Positions 7,407-21,584 of a stretch of DNA of 23,198 nucleotides are shown in pieces. The position numbers were made by a program, and so were the translations under genes. The stretch covers positions 1 to 23,198 of the IMG/VR virus record IMGVR_UViG_3300023172_000199. The stretch is one strand, 5' to 3'. The notes beneath the pieces are model-generated. The model did no database searches and was not told where the DNA came from. It saw only the letters and a list, made by a program, of their open reading frames with translations. Position 1 is the first letter of the stretch. Each line of letters opens with the position of its first letter. The DNA is from a virus.

Positions 7407-7967
7407 ATGGTAAAACTTAATCCACTTGCACGACAACCAAATAATCTAGACTTTGCATCACCGACTCAGTTTAGATTTAATTTGTTGAAAACACCTAACG
7501 TAGAATATTTTGTTACATCTGTAAACTTGCCTGGCATTAGTTTTAGTGGTGAAGCAAATATGAATACACGTTTTAAGAGTATTGCTCTAATGGGAGATAC
7601 ACTTGAATTTGAAGATTTAGAATTAACATTCCTTGTGAATGAAGATTTATCAAACTATCGTGAAGTACATGATTGGATTACTGGAATTGGTTTTCCAAAA
7701 GATACTGAACAGTTTAAAACTGCATCTTCAGAAAATTCTGAATTGAGACCTAATACATCAAGTTTAACTAATCCCAATACTATGGCTTCTGATGCAAGTC
7801 TCACACTTCTTACAAATAAAAATAATCCAACACTCAGAGTGAATTTCAAAAATTGTTATCCTAACTCTCTTTCTGGATTGACATATAATACACAGGTTAC
7901 TGACACAGAACAACTAACGGCAACTGCAAGTTTTAAATACGATTTTTACGAATTTGAAACTTTATAA
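7407..7967 (+). CDS. Second tail-tube-fold protein (gp19-like; position of marine 'gp3')
   Basis: A 186-residue virion protein with the layout of the gp19 family. It has FASPTQFRFNLLKTPNVEYF, then the VNLPGISFSGEA turn (compare SLPGQTIGEVP in gp19), ALMGDTLEFEDLELTFLVNE, and the helix SNYREVHDWITGIGFP, which aligns with the RNAMERWMNGIND helix of gp19. It lacks strong overall identity to the tail tube gene at 1252-1776. It may be a tube-terminating, tail-completion or baseplate-hub tube component. In related marine phages the gene after gp23 has been labelled gp3; I cannot confirm that from sequence alone. The stop codon TAA lies inside the next late promoter box. Confidence 0.8.
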   Translation: MVKLNPLARQPNNLDFASPTQFRFNLLKTPNVEYFVTSVNLPGISFSGEANMNTRFKSIALMGDTLEFEDLELTFLVNEDLSNYREVHDWITGIGFPKDTEQFKTASSENSELRPNTSSLTNPNTMASDASLTLLTNKNNPTLRVNFKNCYPNSLSGLTYNTQVTDTEQLTATASFKYDFYEFETL

Positions 7968-16787: not shown

Positions 16788-16921
16788 AGAGGGATTGAAA
16801 AATCCCTCTTGGATGTATATATAATATAGGGTGCGATTCGTAAGTCGCCCTGTTCGACACAAATATGCTTACTCTGTGTCGCAAATCACGGTTTTGGTAG
16901 TTTCCGCCCAAAAAACTACCA
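16788..16921 (+). ncRNA. Hairpin-rich non-coding segment between DUF932 and hsp20
   Basis: The 215-base gap has no plausible ORF but four hairpins. (1) AGAGGGATT/AATCCCTCT with GAAA loop, 16788-16809. (2) GCGA/TCGC extended by two G-C pairs with a bulged T, loop TTCGTAAG, 16829-16850. (3) CGACACA/TGTGTCG with a 13-base loop, 16855-16881. (4) TGGTAGTTT/AAACTACCA, 16895-16921. GTAAG in loop 2 (16840-16844) is complementary to CTTAC in loop 3 (16868-16872), so a kissing interaction is possible. None has a proper T run, so they are poor terminators. It could be a structured 3' UTR, a processed small RNA or a DNA structural site. No known family recognised. Confidence 0.5.
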
Positions 16922-16924
16922 CTT

Positions 16925-16932
16925 TATAAATA
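16925..16932 (+). promoter_or_regulatory. Late promoter (TATAAATA) for hsp20, with leader hairpin
   Basis: TATAAATA directly after the last hairpin of the preceding segment. Predicted start is near 16938. The transcript would begin with an imperfect hairpin, GTGATA (16936-16941) with TATCAC (16954-16959), then about 30 unpaired bases and an AAAGGAG ribosome site before ATG 16991. Confidence 0.8.
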
Positions 16933-16990: not shown

Positions 16991-17419
16991 ATGGTAAATA
17001 CAGCTCTTACAGACCCTTTTGACAGGGTTAAAACTTACTCTATCGGATTCGATAGAATGTTCGACAGACTACTTGATGATAGTCTTGTTACAACAACAAA
17101 CTACCCCCCTTACAATATCGTAAAAATGGATGACACCAATTATGCAATTCAGATTGCAGTTGCTGGATTCGGTAAAGACGATATTGAGATTGAAACAAAA
17201 GAGAATACTCTTTCAATCAAATCGAAAGAAAAGGGTGATGTTGTTGATGAAACAACTTATCTGCACAAGGGCATTTCAAATCGTGCCTTCAAGAGAACTT
17301 TCACTATCTCTGATGATGTGGTAGTTAAAGGTGCAACTTTTGAAAATGGGTTGTTGAACGTAGAACTTGAAAGAATCATTCCAGAGGAAAAGAAGCCTCG
17401 CCTGATTAAAATCAAGTAA
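16991..17419 (+). CDS. hsp20: Small heat shock protein Hsp20
   Basis: A 142-residue alpha-crystallin-type chaperone that holds unfolding proteins in solution. The N-terminal arm (1-38) includes SIGFDRMFDRLLDD. The alpha-crystallin domain starts at NYPPYNIVKMDD and contains IQIAVAGFGKDDIEIE, NTLSIKSKEK, the KGISNRAFKRTFTISDDV segment and the signature FENGLLNVELER. The C-terminal LIKIK carries the I-x-I-type anchor. Hsp20 genes are a recurrent marker of marine T4-like phages. The late promoter suggests a role in folding or holding virion proteins, or protection of the host late in infection. Followed by a strong terminator. Confidence 0.95.
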   Translation: MVNTALTDPFDRVKTYSIGFDRMFDRLLDDSLVTTTNYPPYNIVKMDDTNYAIQIAVAGFGKDDIEIETKENTLSIKSKEKGDVVDETTYLHKGISNRAFKRTFTISDDVVVKGATFENGLLNVELERIIPEEKKPRLIKIK

Positions 17420-17425
17420 TTTTGT

Positions 17426-17455
17426 AAGAGCGCCTCTTGACAGGGGCGCTCTTTT
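17426..17455 (+). terminator. Rho-independent terminator after hsp20
   Basis: AAGAGCGCCTC (17426-17436) pairs with GGGGCGCTCTT (17443-17453), 11 pairs with one G-U. The six-base loop is TTGACA, and the T stretch is 17452-17455 (TTTT including the last stem bases). The loop is exactly the -35 hexamer of the next promoter. Confidence 0.88.
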
Positions 17456-17465
17456 ATGTTATAGT
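17437..17465 (+). promoter_or_regulatory. Sigma70-type promoter of the DUF3310 gene, inside the hsp20 terminator
   Basis: TTGACA (17437-17442) forms the terminator loop. A 17-base spacer contains the whole right arm of the stem, and TATAGT (17460-17465) follows. Upstream bases give CTCTTGACA as at the gp55 and gp43 promoters. Expected start is near 17472, about 20 bases before ATG 17492. Confidence 0.85.
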
Positions 17466-17491
17466 ATGTGTAATTGAATTGAGGATTTGTA

Positions 17492-17806
17492 ATGAAATAT
17501 TTTAAGAACAAAGATGAGCCTACAGTAGTTGATAAAATTGACTACAAATATTCAGAGGATAGAATCCTCAAAGAGTTGCAAGAGTATATTGATAAAACTT
17601 ACTCTGCACACTATTCCCACAATAGATTTCAAGCAACAGAATTCATCATGGACTCGGGCCATGGAGAAGGTTTCTGTATCGGCAACATTTTAAAGTATAG
17701 TCAACGATACGGAAAGAAAGACGGCAAGAACAGAAATGACTTGCTAAAAGTGATCCATTATGGTATAATGGCACTTCATAATCACGATACAACGGAGAAT
17801 AATTGA
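17492..17806 (+). CDS. DUF3310-type protein
   Basis: A 104-residue protein. The C-terminal two-thirds match the DUF3310 pattern common in phages: a YIDKTYSAHYS motif, then QATEFIMDSGHGEGFCIGN followed by ILKYSQRYGKK and NDLLKVIHYGIMALH. The E-x-x-x-x-x-G-x-x-x-C-x-GN core and R-Y-x-x-K-x-G are seen. It is sometimes annotated as a nucleotide-kinase-associated protein, but its activity is unknown. It is short, helical and cytoplasmic by composition. Its 3' part contains a candidate promoter for gp45, whose ATG begins two bases after its stop. Confidence 0.85.
   Translation: MKYFKNKDEPTVVDKIDYKYSEDRILKELQEYIDKTYSAHYSHNRFQATEFIMDSGHGEGFCIGNILKYSQRYGKKDGKNRNDLLKVIHYGIMALHNHDTTENN
17741..17769 (+). 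promoter_or_regulatory. Candidate sigma70-type promoter of gp45
   Basis: TTGCTA (17741-17746), 17-base spacer, perfect TATAAT (17764-17769), located inside the end of the DUF3310 gene. The start would be near 17776, with a 32-base leader and CGGAGAA before ATG 17808. The -35 matches only 4 of 6, so confidence is moderate. Confidence 0.55.
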
Positions 17807-17807
17807 T

Positions 17808-18467
17808 ATGAAACTTAGTAATGATACCAGAGAAGTTCTGAAGAACTTTTCTACCATTAACCAGAATCTTCTGGTAAAAAATGGAACTGTGATTGGAACA
17901 ATGTCAGCGATGAAAAACATCGTTGCAAAGGCAACTGTTCCAGATACTTTCAACAATGAATTTGCCATCTATGACTTGAATGAGTTCTTGTCTGCAATGT
18001 CTCTATTCAAAGACCCAACTCTCACATTCGATGAGAAGAGTGTAAAACTTAATGAAGAGGGTGGTGGTAGTAAACTGACTTATATGTTCAGTGACCCATC
18101 TATCGTGACAGCTCCCAAGACAGAAATCACTATGCCAAGTGTTGATGTAGAGTTTACTTTTACACAAGACACATTTAACCAAATCCAAAAGGCATCTGCT
18201 GTTCTTGGTGTTCCAGATGTGGTTCTCAAAGGAACTGCTGGTGGTAGTATTGAACTTACTGTTACTGATCGTAAGAATGATACATCCAATGACTTCAGTA
18301 TTACAGTCGGCGAAAACTCACCAACTGATTTCACATACTTCTTTAAGGTTGAAAACCTAAAACTCCTGTCAGGCGACTACAAGGTAGAAGTTTCTTCAAA
18401 AGGTATCTCACATTTTACTAATGTGTCGAAATCTATTGAATACTTTATTGCACTTGAAGCTGCTTAA
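17808..18467 (+). CDS. 45: Sliding clamp gp45
   Basis: A 219-residue processivity clamp (T4 gp45 is 228). It trims as a ring around DNA, tethers polymerase gp43 and also activates late transcription with gp55. The opening MKLSNDTREVLKNFSTINQN and LLVKNGTVIGTMS are typical. Other family features are FAIYDLNEFLSAMSLF, the acidic-basic face with KLTYMFSDPSIV, and the C-terminal SSKGISHFTNVSKSIEYFIALE. ATG 17808 follows a CGGAGAATAATTG ribosome site. It heads the replisome order 45-44-62-regA-43 of T4. A short hairpin separates it from gp44. Confidence 0.96.
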   Translation: MKLSNDTREVLKNFSTINQNLLVKNGTVIGTMSAMKNIVAKATVPDTFNNEFAIYDLNEFLSAMSLFKDPTLTFDEKSVKLNEEGGGSKLTYMFSDPSIVTAPKTEITMPSVDVEFTFTQDTFNQIQKASAVLGVPDVVLKGTAGGSIELTVTDRKNDTSNDFSITVGENSPTDFTYFFKVENLKLLSGDYKVEVSSKGISHFTNVSKSIEYFIALEAA

Positions 18468-18503: not shown

Positions 18504-18537
18504 CATATATGAAACATTATTGACAAGGAGATATATT

Positions 18538-19476
18538 ATGAATGATGTGATGCTTTGGGTGGAGAAATATCGTCCATCCAAAATCAGTGAGTGTATTCTT
18601 ACTGATGATTTGAAAACGACTTTCCAGACCTTTGTAGATGAAGGACATATTCCAAACCTTCTTTTATCTGGTGGGCCTGGAGTAGGTAAAACCACAGTTG
18701 CAAAAGCAATGCTTGAGGAACTTGGTGCTACTTATATGATGATAAACGGTTCTGAAGAATCTGGTATTGATGTTCTCAGAAACAAGATTAAGAACTTTGC
18801 TTCTACTGTCTCTATGGATGGTAATCGTAAGTTCGTGATTCTTGATGAGGCAGACTATCTAAATCCACAATCAACTCAGCCTGCCTTGCGTGGGTTCATT
18901 GAAGAGTTCCATAAGAACTGTGGATTTATCCTTACCTGTAACTTCAAGAACCGTATTATCGACCCTTTGCACAGTCGGTGTTCTGTAGTAGAGTTTCGTA
19001 TTCCTACTACTGATAAACCTAAACTTGCTGGACAATTCTTCAAAAGAGTGCAAACCATTCTGCAAGAAGAAAAGGTTCAGTTTGAACCAAAGGCTGTCGC
19101 TGGTATTGTTGAGAAACACTTCCCAGATTGGAGAAGAGTTCTTAATGAACTGCAAAGGTATTCTGCCTCTGGTATTATTGATGGTGTTATACTAGTTAAT
19201 CTATCAGAAACAAACATGAAGGACTTAACAACTTTCCTTAAAGAGAAAGACTTTAAGTCTATTCGCAAATGGGTTGCAAACAACCTAGATAATGATCCTG
19301 CTCGTATGTACCGTAAGGTATACGATTCTCTGTATGAAGAAGTACAGCCTTCTACTGTTCCTCATCTTGTTCTCGCAACAGCAGACTACTCTTATAAATC
19401 TGCCTTTGTCGCTGATCAAGAAATCAATATGCTTGCATTTATGATTGAGGTTATGACACAGGTGAATTGGAAATGA
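18538..19476 (+). CDS. 44: Clamp loader large subunit gp44
   Basis: A 312-residue AAA+ ATPase (T4 gp44 is 319) forming the 4:1 loader with gp62, which opens and closes the gp45 ring on primed DNA. It starts MNDVMLWVEKYRPSKISEC, with the typical W-x-E-KYRP motif. Walker A is GGPGVGKTT (45-53), Walker B ILDEAD (101-106), and the SRC arginine-finger motif is at 146-148. The C-terminal collar region contains LKEKDFKSIRKWVANN. ATG 18538 is preferred over TTG 18520 because of AAGGAGATAT directly upstream. The stop overlaps the gp62 start. Confidence 0.97.
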   Translation: MNDVMLWVEKYRPSKISECILTDDLKTTFQTFVDEGHIPNLLLSGGPGVGKTTVAKAMLEELGATYMMINGSEESGIDVLRNKIKNFASTVSMDGNRKFVILDEADYLNPQSTQPALRGFIEEFHKNCGFILTCNFKNRIIDPLHSRCSVVEFRIPTTDKPKLAGQFFKRVQTILQEEKVQFEPKAVAGIVEKHFPDWRRVLNELQRYSASGIIDGVILVNLSETNMKDLTTFLKEKDFKSIRKWVANNLDNDPARMYRKVYDSLYEEVQPSTVPHLVLATADYSYKSAFVADQEINMLAFMIEVMTQVNWK

Positions 19477-19862
19477 GTTATGAACTAAAAGATTATCTAA
19501 AGTCTATCAATGAAACAAAGGAAAATCTGATGGATTCAGATGATCCTATGTGGGAAAAGAAATATTCGCCGTTCATCATTAACAAGTGTTTGGCGCCATT
19601 CAATGACACCATAATGCTTGTTAATGAGGTGAATCAACGTCACCACCTTGACACAAAACTCCAATATGACTTTTTACTAAATACTATTAGATCGAAGAAA
19701 CGCTATGCTCCTTGGGTAAAGGCAGATAAGTTGAAAGATTTAGAGTATGTAAAAGAGTATTTTGGTTATAGTAATGCAAAAGCAAAAGCCGCTCTTCAAA
19801 TACTTGATAATGAACAGATAACGACTATAAAAAATAGTTTGAATAAAGGTGGAAGAAAATGA
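19473..19862 (+). CDS. 62: Clamp loader small subunit gp62
   Basis: A 129-residue protein at the exact position of gp62, between gp44 and regA. It is shorter than T4 gp62 (187). The sequence is helical: MSYELKDYLKSINETK, WEKKYSPFIINKCLAPF with NDTIMLVNEVN, and RSKKRYAPWVKADKLKDLEYVKEY in the second half, a pattern shared by marine gp62 proteins. There are no ATPase motifs, as expected for this non-catalytic subunit. ATG 19473 overlaps the gp44 stop (ATGA); a TTG two codons earlier is unlikely. The end overlaps the regA start by ATGA. Confidence 0.88.
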   Translation: MSYELKDYLKSINETKENLMDSDDPMWEKKYSPFIINKCLAPFNDTIMLVNEVNQRHHLDTKLQYDFLLNTIRSKKRYAPWVKADKLKDLEYVKEYFGYSNAKAKAALQILDNEQITTIKNSLNKGGRK

Positions 19863-20263
19863 ATGAAATTGAATGGCATCCAGAAAAGATGCTGGAAGTA
19901 AAATTAAAAGAACCAGATGACTTCCTAAAGGTTCGTGAGACATTATCTCGTATTGGTGTCGCCTCTCGTAAAGAGAGAAAACTCTATCAGTCTTGTCACA
20001 TCCTACATAAACAAGGTAAGTATTACATTGTCCATTTCAAGGAACTTTTTGCTCTTGATGGTAAAGATACAAACCTAAACGAGAACGATGTATCAAGACG
20101 AAACTCAATCGCCGGACTACTTGGTGATTGGGGGTTGATTGAAATAGTTGGTGAAGCTGAACCTAAAGCACCTCTTTCTCAAATTAAAGTAATCGCTTTT
20201 AAAGAGAAGGATGAGTGGGAACTGGAAACAAAATACAATATCGGTAAAAAAAGAGAAGCTTAA
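19859..20263 (+). CDS. regA: Translational repressor RegA
   Basis: A 134-residue RNA-binding repressor (T4 RegA is 122) that blocks initiation on several early phage mRNAs, including in T4 rIIB, 44, 45 and its own. It is recognised by EVKLKEPDDFLKVRETLSRIG, SRKERKLYQSCHILHKQGKYY, IVHFKELFALDGK and DVSRRNSIAGLLGDWGLIE. The conserved basic and aromatic residues of these segments form the RNA-binding surface in T4. It is coupled to gp62 by an ATGA overlap. It ends only one base before the TTG start of the next gene, so read-through coupling and RegA control of the neighbour are plausible. Confidence 0.95.
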   Translation: MNEIEWHPEKMLEVKLKEPDDFLKVRETLSRIGVASRKERKLYQSCHILHKQGKYYIVHFKELFALDGKDTNLNENDVSRRNSIAGLLGDWGLIEIVGEAEPKAPLSQIKVIAFKEKDEWELETKYNIGKKREA

Positions 20264-20264
20264 A

Positions 20265-21338
20265 TTGACACAAAAATTCTCCCAATTCATTACAGAAGAA
20301 CCAAAAGAACAGAAGTATAAACTCCTCATTCTTTCGCATGACGATCCACTAGACCCTAATGAAACAGGGCCTATGATTCGTAAGACTGCGAAATCAATGG
20401 GTATTGAATGTTATCTTGCTGAATTCTCTGGTTCTTATATGGAGTCTGATGGAGACAGTAAGTTAGTTTATTCTTTTCCAGTAAATGATGAAGGCAAGGC
20501 AGAACTTCCTACAATGAAGTCTGATGCTGAATACGATAAACCGTTTAAGATTAATCCTAAAGATACTCTTGTTATGGCAAGAGGATTGGGTTCTACAGTA
20601 AAGCTTGGAAACCGTTCTTGGTGGGTAACTATTAATAATCTAGAAGAAGAAGGTTACACTGTCATCAACTCTACAAAGTGCCATGACATTTGTGGTGATA
20701 AATGGTACAACCAAGTTGTTTTCCAAAGAGAAGATTTTAATACACCAAAGACAGTTTTGGTTCGTCATGCAGAAGGTGGCGCAGCTGCAGCAGAGAAACT
20801 TGGAAATAAGTTTCCAATGATTCTTAAAACATCTACAGGTTCTAGGGGTGTTGGTGTTATGTGGGTTGAGAGTTTGAAATCTCTTCACAGTGTTATCCAA
20901 CTACTATATAGAGAAGATGAGTATGTAGACATTCTTTTGCAAGAATATATTAAGACAGATTATGACGTAAGAGTTATTATTGTTGCTGGACAAATAATTG
21001 GTGCGATGAAACGACCTGTTATCAGTGATGATTTTAGAAGTAATGTTTCTCAAGGTTCTGAACCAGAGATACATGAGTTGACTGAATTAGAAAAAGAAGA
21101 ATCAATTCGGGCGGCTAAAGCAGTGGATGGAATGATTGTCGGAGTTGACTTCATTCCTGCTAAAAACAGAGATAAAGATAAACCATATATGATTGAGGTG
21201 AACTCTACTCCTGGCCTTATGGGTATTGAAGCAGTTTACAAAGATGCAGCTTCCAAACCACTTATCAAAGATCAGAAGAGAAGTATCTCAAAAGAAATAT
21301 TGGAAATCTTTATGAATAGAGACAATTGGAGTATATAA
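20265..21338 (+). CDS. RimK-like ATP-grasp ligase
   Basis: A 357-residue ATP-grasp protein from TTG 20265, one base after the regA stop, with AGAGAAG as ribosome site; the frame is open further upstream within regA, but that part is unlikely to be coding. The first ~130 residues (YKLLILSHDDPLDPNETGP, LVMARGLGS) form a pre-ATP-grasp domain. The ATP-grasp core is FPMILKTSTGSRGVGVMW (183-200), LLQEYIKTDYDVRVIIV (224-240), AMKRP, and the Mg-binding strand IEVNSTPGLMGIE (310-322). This matches RimK/glutathione-synthetase-type amino acid ligases. RimK adds glutamate to ribosomal protein S6 in bacteria; the target here is unknown. Its place in the replisome operon is conserved in some marine phages. 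Confidence 0.85.
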   Translation: MTQKFSQFITEEPKEQKYKLLILSHDDPLDPNETGPMIRKTAKSMGIECYLAEFSGSYMESDGDSKLVYSFPVNDEGKAELPTMKSDAEYDKPFKINPKDTLVMARGLGSTVKLGNRSWWVTINNLEEEGYTVINSTKCHDICGDKWYNQVVFQREDFNTPKTVLVRHAEGGAAAAEKLGNKFPMILKTSTGSRGVGVMWVESLKSLHSVIQLLYREDEYVDILLQEYIKTDYDVRVIIVAGQIIGAMKRPVISDDFRSNVSQGSEPEIHELTELEKEESIRAAKAVDGMIVGVDFIPAKNRDKDKPYMIEVNSTPGLMGIEAVYKDAASKPLIKDQKRSISKEILEIFMNRDNWSI

Positions 21339-21559
21339 TGACACTACTAGAAGCAATCAAAAAACACAACGAAGGTAAGATTGCCCTACATAAAGCAAAT
21401 GTTGCAATCTATTTGAAGAACCCTGCTGGTATTGGAGAACATTCTGATATTGCAGAGGCCGTAGAAGCAGAACTACTTAAAATTGCAGAAGCACAAGATG
21501 TTATCGACATGATTGATAGACACTTCACCTCAGAGGAACAATTACCTCTTTTCTCTTGA
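21338..21559 (+). CDS. Small conserved helical protein of unknown function
   Basis: A 73-residue protein, MTLLEAIKKHNEGKIALHK..., almost entirely helical, with an Ala/Glu-rich centre (DIAEAVEAELLKIAEAQD) and ending EEQLPLFS. The QLPLF end resembles clamp-binding peptides (Q-L-x-L-F), which bind bacterial beta clamps; whether it binds gp45 or a host clamp is inference. ATG 21338 shares its A with the preceding stop. The gp43 promoter -35 overlaps its last codon and stop. Not recognised beyond being a typical small gene next to gp43 in this phage group. Confidence 0.7.
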   Translation: MTLLEAIKKHNEGKIALHKANVAIYLKNPAGIGEHSDIAEAVEAELLKIAEAQDVIDMIDRHFTSEEQLPLFS

Positions 21560-21584
21560 CATTTCCCCCTAATGGTGGTATATT
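21556..21584 (+). promoter_or_regulatory. Sigma70-type promoter of gp43
   Basis: TTGACA (21556-21561), 17-base spacer, TATATT (21579-21584), with the CTC extension (CTCTTGACA). The -10 lies only 6 bases from ATG 21591, so the expected start is at or next to the ATG. The polymerase mRNA from it would be leaderless or nearly so; ribosome site use would need transcripts from upstream. Confidence 0.75.

Follow-up and report, generated by a model that had tools for sequence, protein, structure and literature searches.

Promoter-early stem-loops (PeSLs) of T4-like phages were reportedly described by Arbiol et al. in 2010 (GBE 2:140) and by Comeau et al. in 2014 (GBE 6:1611), the latter as "Composite conserved promoter-terminator motifs". 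Papers that cite this work present PeSLs as composite conserved promoter-terminator motifs mediating modular shuffling in T4-like phages. The definition used here, which comes from those citing papers, is that of a short intergenic element in which a strong sigma-70-like early promoter is combined with a terminator stem-loop, with many copies per genome in hyperplastic regions. According to these secondary sources composite promoter-terminators are already known in T4-like phages; what differs at the locus analyzed here from the RB49 and KVP40 copies that we examined is the geometry, in which the -35 box is the loop of the terminator. In RB49, 4 of the 14 promoters listed have a hairpin that takes up the spacer separating GTTGAC from TATAAT, and in the composite GTTGAC-GCGGGGagaaaTCCCCGC-TATAAT the hairpin lies wholly within that spacer. 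The KVP40 genome contains five copies of AAAGGGTTGAC-N4-GTCARCCCTTT-CNNG-TATTAT, where the -35 box is located within the upper stem (AAAGGGTTGAC-TACG-GTCAGCCCTTT); these copies, at 21147, 85859, 97800, 100194 and 121377, are near-identical and are probably the published PeSLs. Because RB49 and KVP40 already differ from each other, we treated the geometry of PeSLs as variable and not as defining.

Two other arrangements are related to the element described below. Terminators followed by promoters in T4 and RB49 provide the same two functions in the same order, but their separate promoters begin 13 to 60 nt past the hairpin, whereas here the bases are shared. The morons of lambdoid phages are promoter-gene-terminator insertions (PMC1524935) and similarly use regulatory signals that permit the insertion of a gene as an independent unit; their signals flank the gene, while here terminator and promoter are fused within 40 bp at one end. 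Our literature search, in which the original PeSL papers were covered through citing papers, found nothing direct on promoters sited in terminator loops.

A predicted terminator-promoter nested downstream of hsp20

The window, which is the whole stretch of 23,198 nt analyzed (IMG/VR record IMGVR_UViG_3300023172_000199), is a fragment of a marine T4-like phage. Its nearest isolate is Methylophilales phage Melnitz (Kyanoviridae), with 75.6% DNA identity across 91% of the queried region. The features of the locus are collected in Table 1.

Table 1. Genes and regulatory features at the hsp20-gp45 locus of the window
Feature	Position	Strand	Basis
T4-type late promoter TATAAATA of hsp20	16925..16932	+	exact motif, same place in most relatives
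hsp20 (small heat-shock protein)	16991..17419	+	phrog_432, E 4.6e-47
Terminator stem, left arm AAGAGCGCCTC	17426..17436	+	covaries with right arm in relatives
Terminator loop = promoter -35 box TTGACA	17437..17442	+	invariant in 23/23 distinct type-A site sequences
Stem right arm GGGGCGCTCTT, within promoter spacer	17443..17453	+	fold and covariation
Terminator T-rich tail, within promoter spacer	17452..17457	+	sequence
Promoter -10 box TATAGT	17460..17465	+	extended TG at 17457-17458; 11/12 consensus matches
Predicted transcription start	17472..17473	+	inferred from -10 position
GAGG ribosome site of DUF3310-like gene	17481-17484	+	sequence
DUF3310-like gene, first of downstream unit	17492..17806	+	phrog_480, E 1.5e-31
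gp45 sliding clamp	17808..18467	+	phrog_223, E 1.7e-78
Clamp loader large subunit	18520-19476	+	phrog_168
Clamp loader small subunit	19467-19862	+	phrog_225 / phrog_242 for small subunit and RegA
RegA translational repressor	19859-20263	+	phrog_225 / phrog_242 for small subunit and RegA

The initial annotation had proposed that TTGACA is the six-base loop of an 11-bp terminator of hsp20 and that TATAGT follows exactly 17 bases further on, with the right arm of the stem inside the spacer. Direct reading of positions 17426-17465 gives exactly this order (AAGAGCGCCTC, TTGACA, GGGGCGCTCTT, TTATGT, TATAGT), with 11 stem pairs including one G-T, a loop of six bases and a -35/-10 spacer of 17 nt; the hsp20 stop codon (17417-17419) ends 6 nt 5' of the stem. 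The hairpin folds as RNA at -22.5 kcal/mol (z -3.5; 0 of 200 shuffles were as good); in the RNA, pairing of the first T of TTGACA with its last A can extend the helix to a 12-bp stem with a UGAC tetraloop. It ranks first in a terminator scan that covered half of the window, and it has the GC-rich hairpin and U-tract of an intrinsic (rho-independent) terminator, with a T-tract that is modest (CTCTTTTATG). The promoter scan score of 11 of 12 consensus positions is that of a strong sigma-70-like early promoter. The -35 box thus lies neither in the upper stem, as in KVP40, nor outside the hairpin, as in RB49, and the element is a third geometry beside those two forms. In the window and related genomes, with a minimum stem of 9 bp and 5 GC and the hexamer as the exact 6-nt loop, random hexamers formed the loop in 3 of 244,349 draws (1.2e-5), compared with 7 of 498 TTGACA copies. 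We also surveyed the TTGAC-type promoters of the window and of 14 related or comparison sequences; of these 217 promoters 11 are nested, 10 of them at the hsp20 site. The draws and the survey rule out a chance overlap of hairpin and promoter; the nested terminator-promoter is correctly observed and well above chance.

Nesting as a genome-wide habit of this phage group was also ruled out, there being essentially one nested site per genome: one in the 23 kb window and one per related contig, these being metagenome-derived fragments in which the site lies between core genes. Terminator and promoter abut, without nesting, at window 21532-21584, where TTGACA-17-TATATT comes within 7 nt after a weak hairpin (AGAGGAACAATTACCTCT) and its T-rich tail. 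Neither the window nor the nested sites of 13 loci matched any Rfam 15 covariance model at gathering level; downstream of one of these 13 the models located PhotoRC-II.

Conservation, covariation and exchange at the hsp20 site

We gathered 80 loci by means of the gp45 protein. Almost every locus with enough upstream DNA carries TTGACA-N17-TANNNT 5' of the DUF3310-like gene or of an extra inserted gene, and the promoter is retained at all site sequences compared. A survey of related phages for TTGACA in terminator loops, which the initial annotation had suggested as a check, found the nested arrangement in 36 of 45 distinct hsp20-site sequences, every one with 17-nt spacing. TTGACA does not vary among the relatives of the window's own stem type (type A), while the letters of the stem vary by matched changes (for example GAGTGCGCC/GGCGCACTT, GAAGGTGCC/GGCACCTTT and GAGAACGCC/GGCGTTCTT). 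In 23 distinct sequences of this site 96.4% of the cells are paired, with 21 two-sided changes and a covariation score of 0.367; when the partner columns are moved by 1 to 3 positions, at most 74.7% are paired, with 3 two-sided changes and a score of 0.166. The counts of pairs and of pair types at the hsp20 site in these 23 sequences are not above those of shuffles, and the shuffle control ignores kinship, so we put weight on the slid control and on the stem replacements. The latter include other stem types that still enclose TTGACA (GGGGGGA, GAGGGGA, GTAGGGGA) and, in other lineages, unrelated stems (ATGGGGGGAA.., AAGAGGGGA.., AGTAGGGGAA..) whose loops, 12-17 nt long, contain TTGACA. A loop that changes while the stem stays, named beforehand as evidence against the idea, is the opposite of what we see: the loop is fixed, the stem varies with compensatory pairs, and this objection fails because loop and stem are jointly conserved. 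As in PeSLs, a stem-loop is fused with the promoter, with a covarying stem that surrounds the -35 box. With the -35 box in the loop, the stem is free to change pair by pair and the promoter is left untouched. This shows how termination and initiation can be packed into 40 bp, with the fixed promoter box taking the part of the terminator that is free of letter requirements.

These comparisons bear on two readings of the palindrome at the DNA level. An inverted repeat centered on the -35 box is the classic geometry of an operator for a repressor or activator covering that box, and elsewhere these phages have promoters with a recurring palindrome, TGTTN5AACA, in the spacer; the arms, however, are wholly different among relatives and only their complementarity is retained, which a sequence-specific protein would not tolerate, and the T-tract is on one side only, so that an operator is very improbable. 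The initial annotation had also suggested that in supercoiled DNA extrusion of the repeat as a cruciform competes with the use of the promoter; such extrusion would leave TTGACA as a single-stranded loop. The repeat of 11 bp is near-perfect and compensatory changes would equally preserve a cruciform, but the several lineages with loops of 12-17 nt argue against it, since loops of this size disfavor extrusion. A cruciform also leaves the T-tract unexplained, which is found only 3' of the stem and is needed by an RNA terminator, and the site has no cruciform-specific feature; this part of the annotation was not upheld and we regard it as extremely improbable. In the 36 nested sites the mean T fraction in the 6 nt 3' of the stem is 0.62, compared with an A fraction of 0.33 on its 5' side.

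In many early promoters of the clade the 17-nt spacer contains a shared palindrome (TTGACwTTTGTTnTnAnAACAnGTATAcT), with about ten copies in Melnitz; such promoters are found in Melnitz (L085-L091), in G001 (L099-L101), at window 15748 and elsewhere. The palindrome resembles an operator used by all of them, or else a stem-loop in the spacer as in the PeSLs of RB49.

Melnitz (MZ577097, PMC9004378) shares with the window the end of hsp20 and the position of the promoter, there TTGACA-17-TATTAT, and its clade keeps the window's gene order at the hsp20 locus. The clade differs in having no enclosing stem and in carrying a spacer hairpin, CCCTA-GAAA-TAGGG, which lacks a T-tract and resembles the RB49 form; termination is therefore not essential at this site. 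On this comparison with RB49, KVP40 and the Melnitz clade we file the window element as a loop-nested PeSL variant; its functional class, terminator plus promoter, is more secure than this family label.

In a gp45 DNA tree with 73 rows and two stem types, the stem type switches at least 11 times on well-supported branches. The nearest gp45 relative of the window, L002, is identical to it in gp45 after rounding (100%), yet carries the other stem type; at the hsp20 end the two are only 78% identical, and L002 also has an extra gene. The pairs L008/L018 and L044/L046 repeat this pattern at 99% gp45 identity. Since all of these differ at the hsp20 end at 99-100% gp45 identity, the element travels with that end. 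Elements located after regA show a related break: three phage types are 97-98% identical upstream and about 60% (unrelated) downstream, and the breakpoint falls inside the spacer of the element, so that each phage type has its own -10 box. The breaks after regA and the switches at the hsp20 site mark the element as a point of gene shuffling, as PeSLs are described. As far as the citing papers describe PeSLs, both kinds of element fuse an early promoter with a terminator stem-loop and have gene exchange at or beside them; the window element occupies a fixed late/early junction among core genes, while PeSLs are also tied to hyperplastic regions. Many relatives, unlike the window, have an additional gene for a protein of about 90 aa (MARKALTKKQK...) between the nested element and the DUF3310-like gene; this optional gene is present in L002 (629-934) and in further loci whose promoter is near -680.

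The same design at other sites

Scanning viral contigs with the pattern CTCTTGACAGRGG-N5-TTT-N5-TANNNT returned at least 119 stretches. About half of the viral matches listed are the hsp20 site; the others come from different phages and lie in the gaps separating pstS from hli and psbD from a PurS-like gene, in the region 5' of psbA, where the site sits upstream of a PhotoRC-II leader, and in the region 3' of regA (gene names at sites other than hsp20 are our reading of the translations, except for the annotated genes of isolates). Apart from the 3 pairs that the pattern itself requires, 57 of the 64 distinct viral matches listed have 5 or more further pairs, against 4 of 45 matches when this pattern was run on 84,980 prokaryote genomes; the prokaryote set served as the negative control and rules out that nesting is common in bacteria. 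A general feature of viral promoters was ruled out likewise, an enclosing stem being present in 4 of 145 consensus extended -10 viral promoters. The set of sites other than hsp20, sampled by this pattern, covaries as well, with 92.8% of cells paired and 26 two-sided cells, compared with at most 61.8% and 9 in the slid control. Among isolated cyanophages, Bellamy has AGAGGAACCC-TTGACA-GGGTTCCTTTTTTACTATATAAT between pstS and hli, and S-SM2 and ACG-2014d have the nested element before hli03; the Syn9 and T4 genomes examined gave no clear nested case. Three further sites (Syn19 44066, ACG-2014d 28255 and S-SM2 46772) have TTGAC in a terminator loop and were left uncounted because their -10 boxes are weak or misplaced. 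With the nested sites, composite promoter-terminators, known from work on coliphages and vibriophages, extend to abundant marine phages and to their auxiliary metabolic genes.

At three nested sites before hli (L144 2563, S-SM2 167151 and Bellamy 184228) a late-promoter-like TATAAAT lies just 5' of the left arm, and a late transcript would therefore start almost at the hairpin.

The late/early boundary and the proposed function

The T4 late promoter motif TATAAATA occurs 5 times in the window, always on the + strand; the mean in shuffles, counting both strands, is 1.33, and 1 of 100 shuffles reached 5. Three copies lie 26-40 nt 5' of the scaffold, major head and tail tube genes, the copy at 7963 is further from the next gene than these, and one is 66 nt 5' of hsp20. 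The last supports the earlier proposal that the hsp20 transcript is late, as does its position at -62 to -72 relative to hsp20 in most relatives; the exact motif is missing 5' of hsp20 in L007, L008, L012, L014, L016, L019 and L030, and also in L053-L055, L057, L058 and L061. With a late promoter before hsp20 and the clamp, clamp-loader and RegA operon after it, the site fits a late-to-early boundary. Two related loci, L056 and L070, have lost hsp20 together with its late promoter and retain the promoter TTGACA-17-TATATT, while their hairpins are down to -10.2 and -4.0 kcal/mol; their deletion joint is common to both, and so they count as one event. A weak hairpin in loci without hsp20 fits a stem that is kept for terminating hsp20 RNA.

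The hairpin could instead stabilize or process the 3' end of hsp20 RNA and overlap the promoter because the intergenic space is short. RNA 3' ends are also protected by hairpins, the intergenic spacing is small and the T-tract of the window is modest; on the other side, a T-rich 3' tail is retained across unrelated stems, the stem is weaker in the loci that lack hsp20 and its late promoter, and the exact geometry recurs in other contexts with long T-tracts, which makes this reading quite improbable. The element is very probably a loop-nested PeSL variant that would end the late hsp20 RNA and start the early replication operon, and the sequence comparison supports the proposal of the initial annotation that one 40-base element serves as both terminator of hsp20 and promoter of the DUF3310/gp45 unit. 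From the structure, the conservation of both parts, the covariation, the context and the exchange, all established by comparing sequences, we infer that termination and initiation occur here and bring a benefit. The geometry would be compact, with the terminator loop acting as the -35 box and the right arm and T-tract filling the 17-nt spacer. At the RNA level, hairpin and U-tract would stop transcripts arriving from the hsp20 late promoter, with release in the T-tract expected from what is established for intrinsic termination. At the DNA level, TTGACA and TATAGT would recruit the host sigma-70 polymerase, and initiation near 17472, as established knowledge of such promoters predicts, would drive the replication unit DUF3310-gp45-gp44-gp62-regA. 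The likely benefit is that late RNA is kept out of the gp45 operon and that the upstream gene and its terminator can be exchanged among phages without loss of the promoter; that blocking late RNA from the gp45 operon is the purpose of the element is a weaker suggestion. In T4 the gp45 clamp is itself a co-activator of late promoters. Late transcription might in principle silence the early promoter, as proposed earlier.

An addition to the loop-nested PeSL reading is that after termination the polymerase remains on the DNA and begins again at the promoter overlapping the terminator, so that late transcription would feed the gp45 operon instead of silencing it; this is unlikely. The late-modified polymerase of T4 carries gp55 instead of sigma-70. 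In its favor, E. coli polymerase slides on DNA after termination and re-initiates at nearby promoters, in vitro after 37% of terminations, or 55% with added sigma-70 (Kang et al. 2020, PMC6978380), and the distance from terminator to promoter is here zero. The element might be a hand-over device in which the polymerase, left on the promoter after ending the late hsp20 RNA, re-initiates the gp45 operon in cis and would couple late and replication transcription, and marine T4-like phages might punctuate their photosynthesis and phosphate genes in the same way, but we consider this rather unlikely. The relatives form a natural mutant series, with paired stem swaps, weakened or lost stems and a spacer hairpin, and therefore termination, promoter strength and possible re-use of the polymerase can be separated experimentally.

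Between a phrog_1221-like gene and hsp20, directly 3' of a TATATAAT-like promoter, window 16828-16924 (+) probably encodes a structured RNA about 100 nt long. This RNA has three hairpins and the invariant stretches TTCGTAAG and CYTACTCTGTG, shows two-sided changes in 8 of 17 predicted pairs (25 sequences), and has no Rfam match in the window. Besides the window it occurs in L003, L007, L033, L056, L070 and others; it is present in 89 viral stretches and persists after the loss of hsp20.
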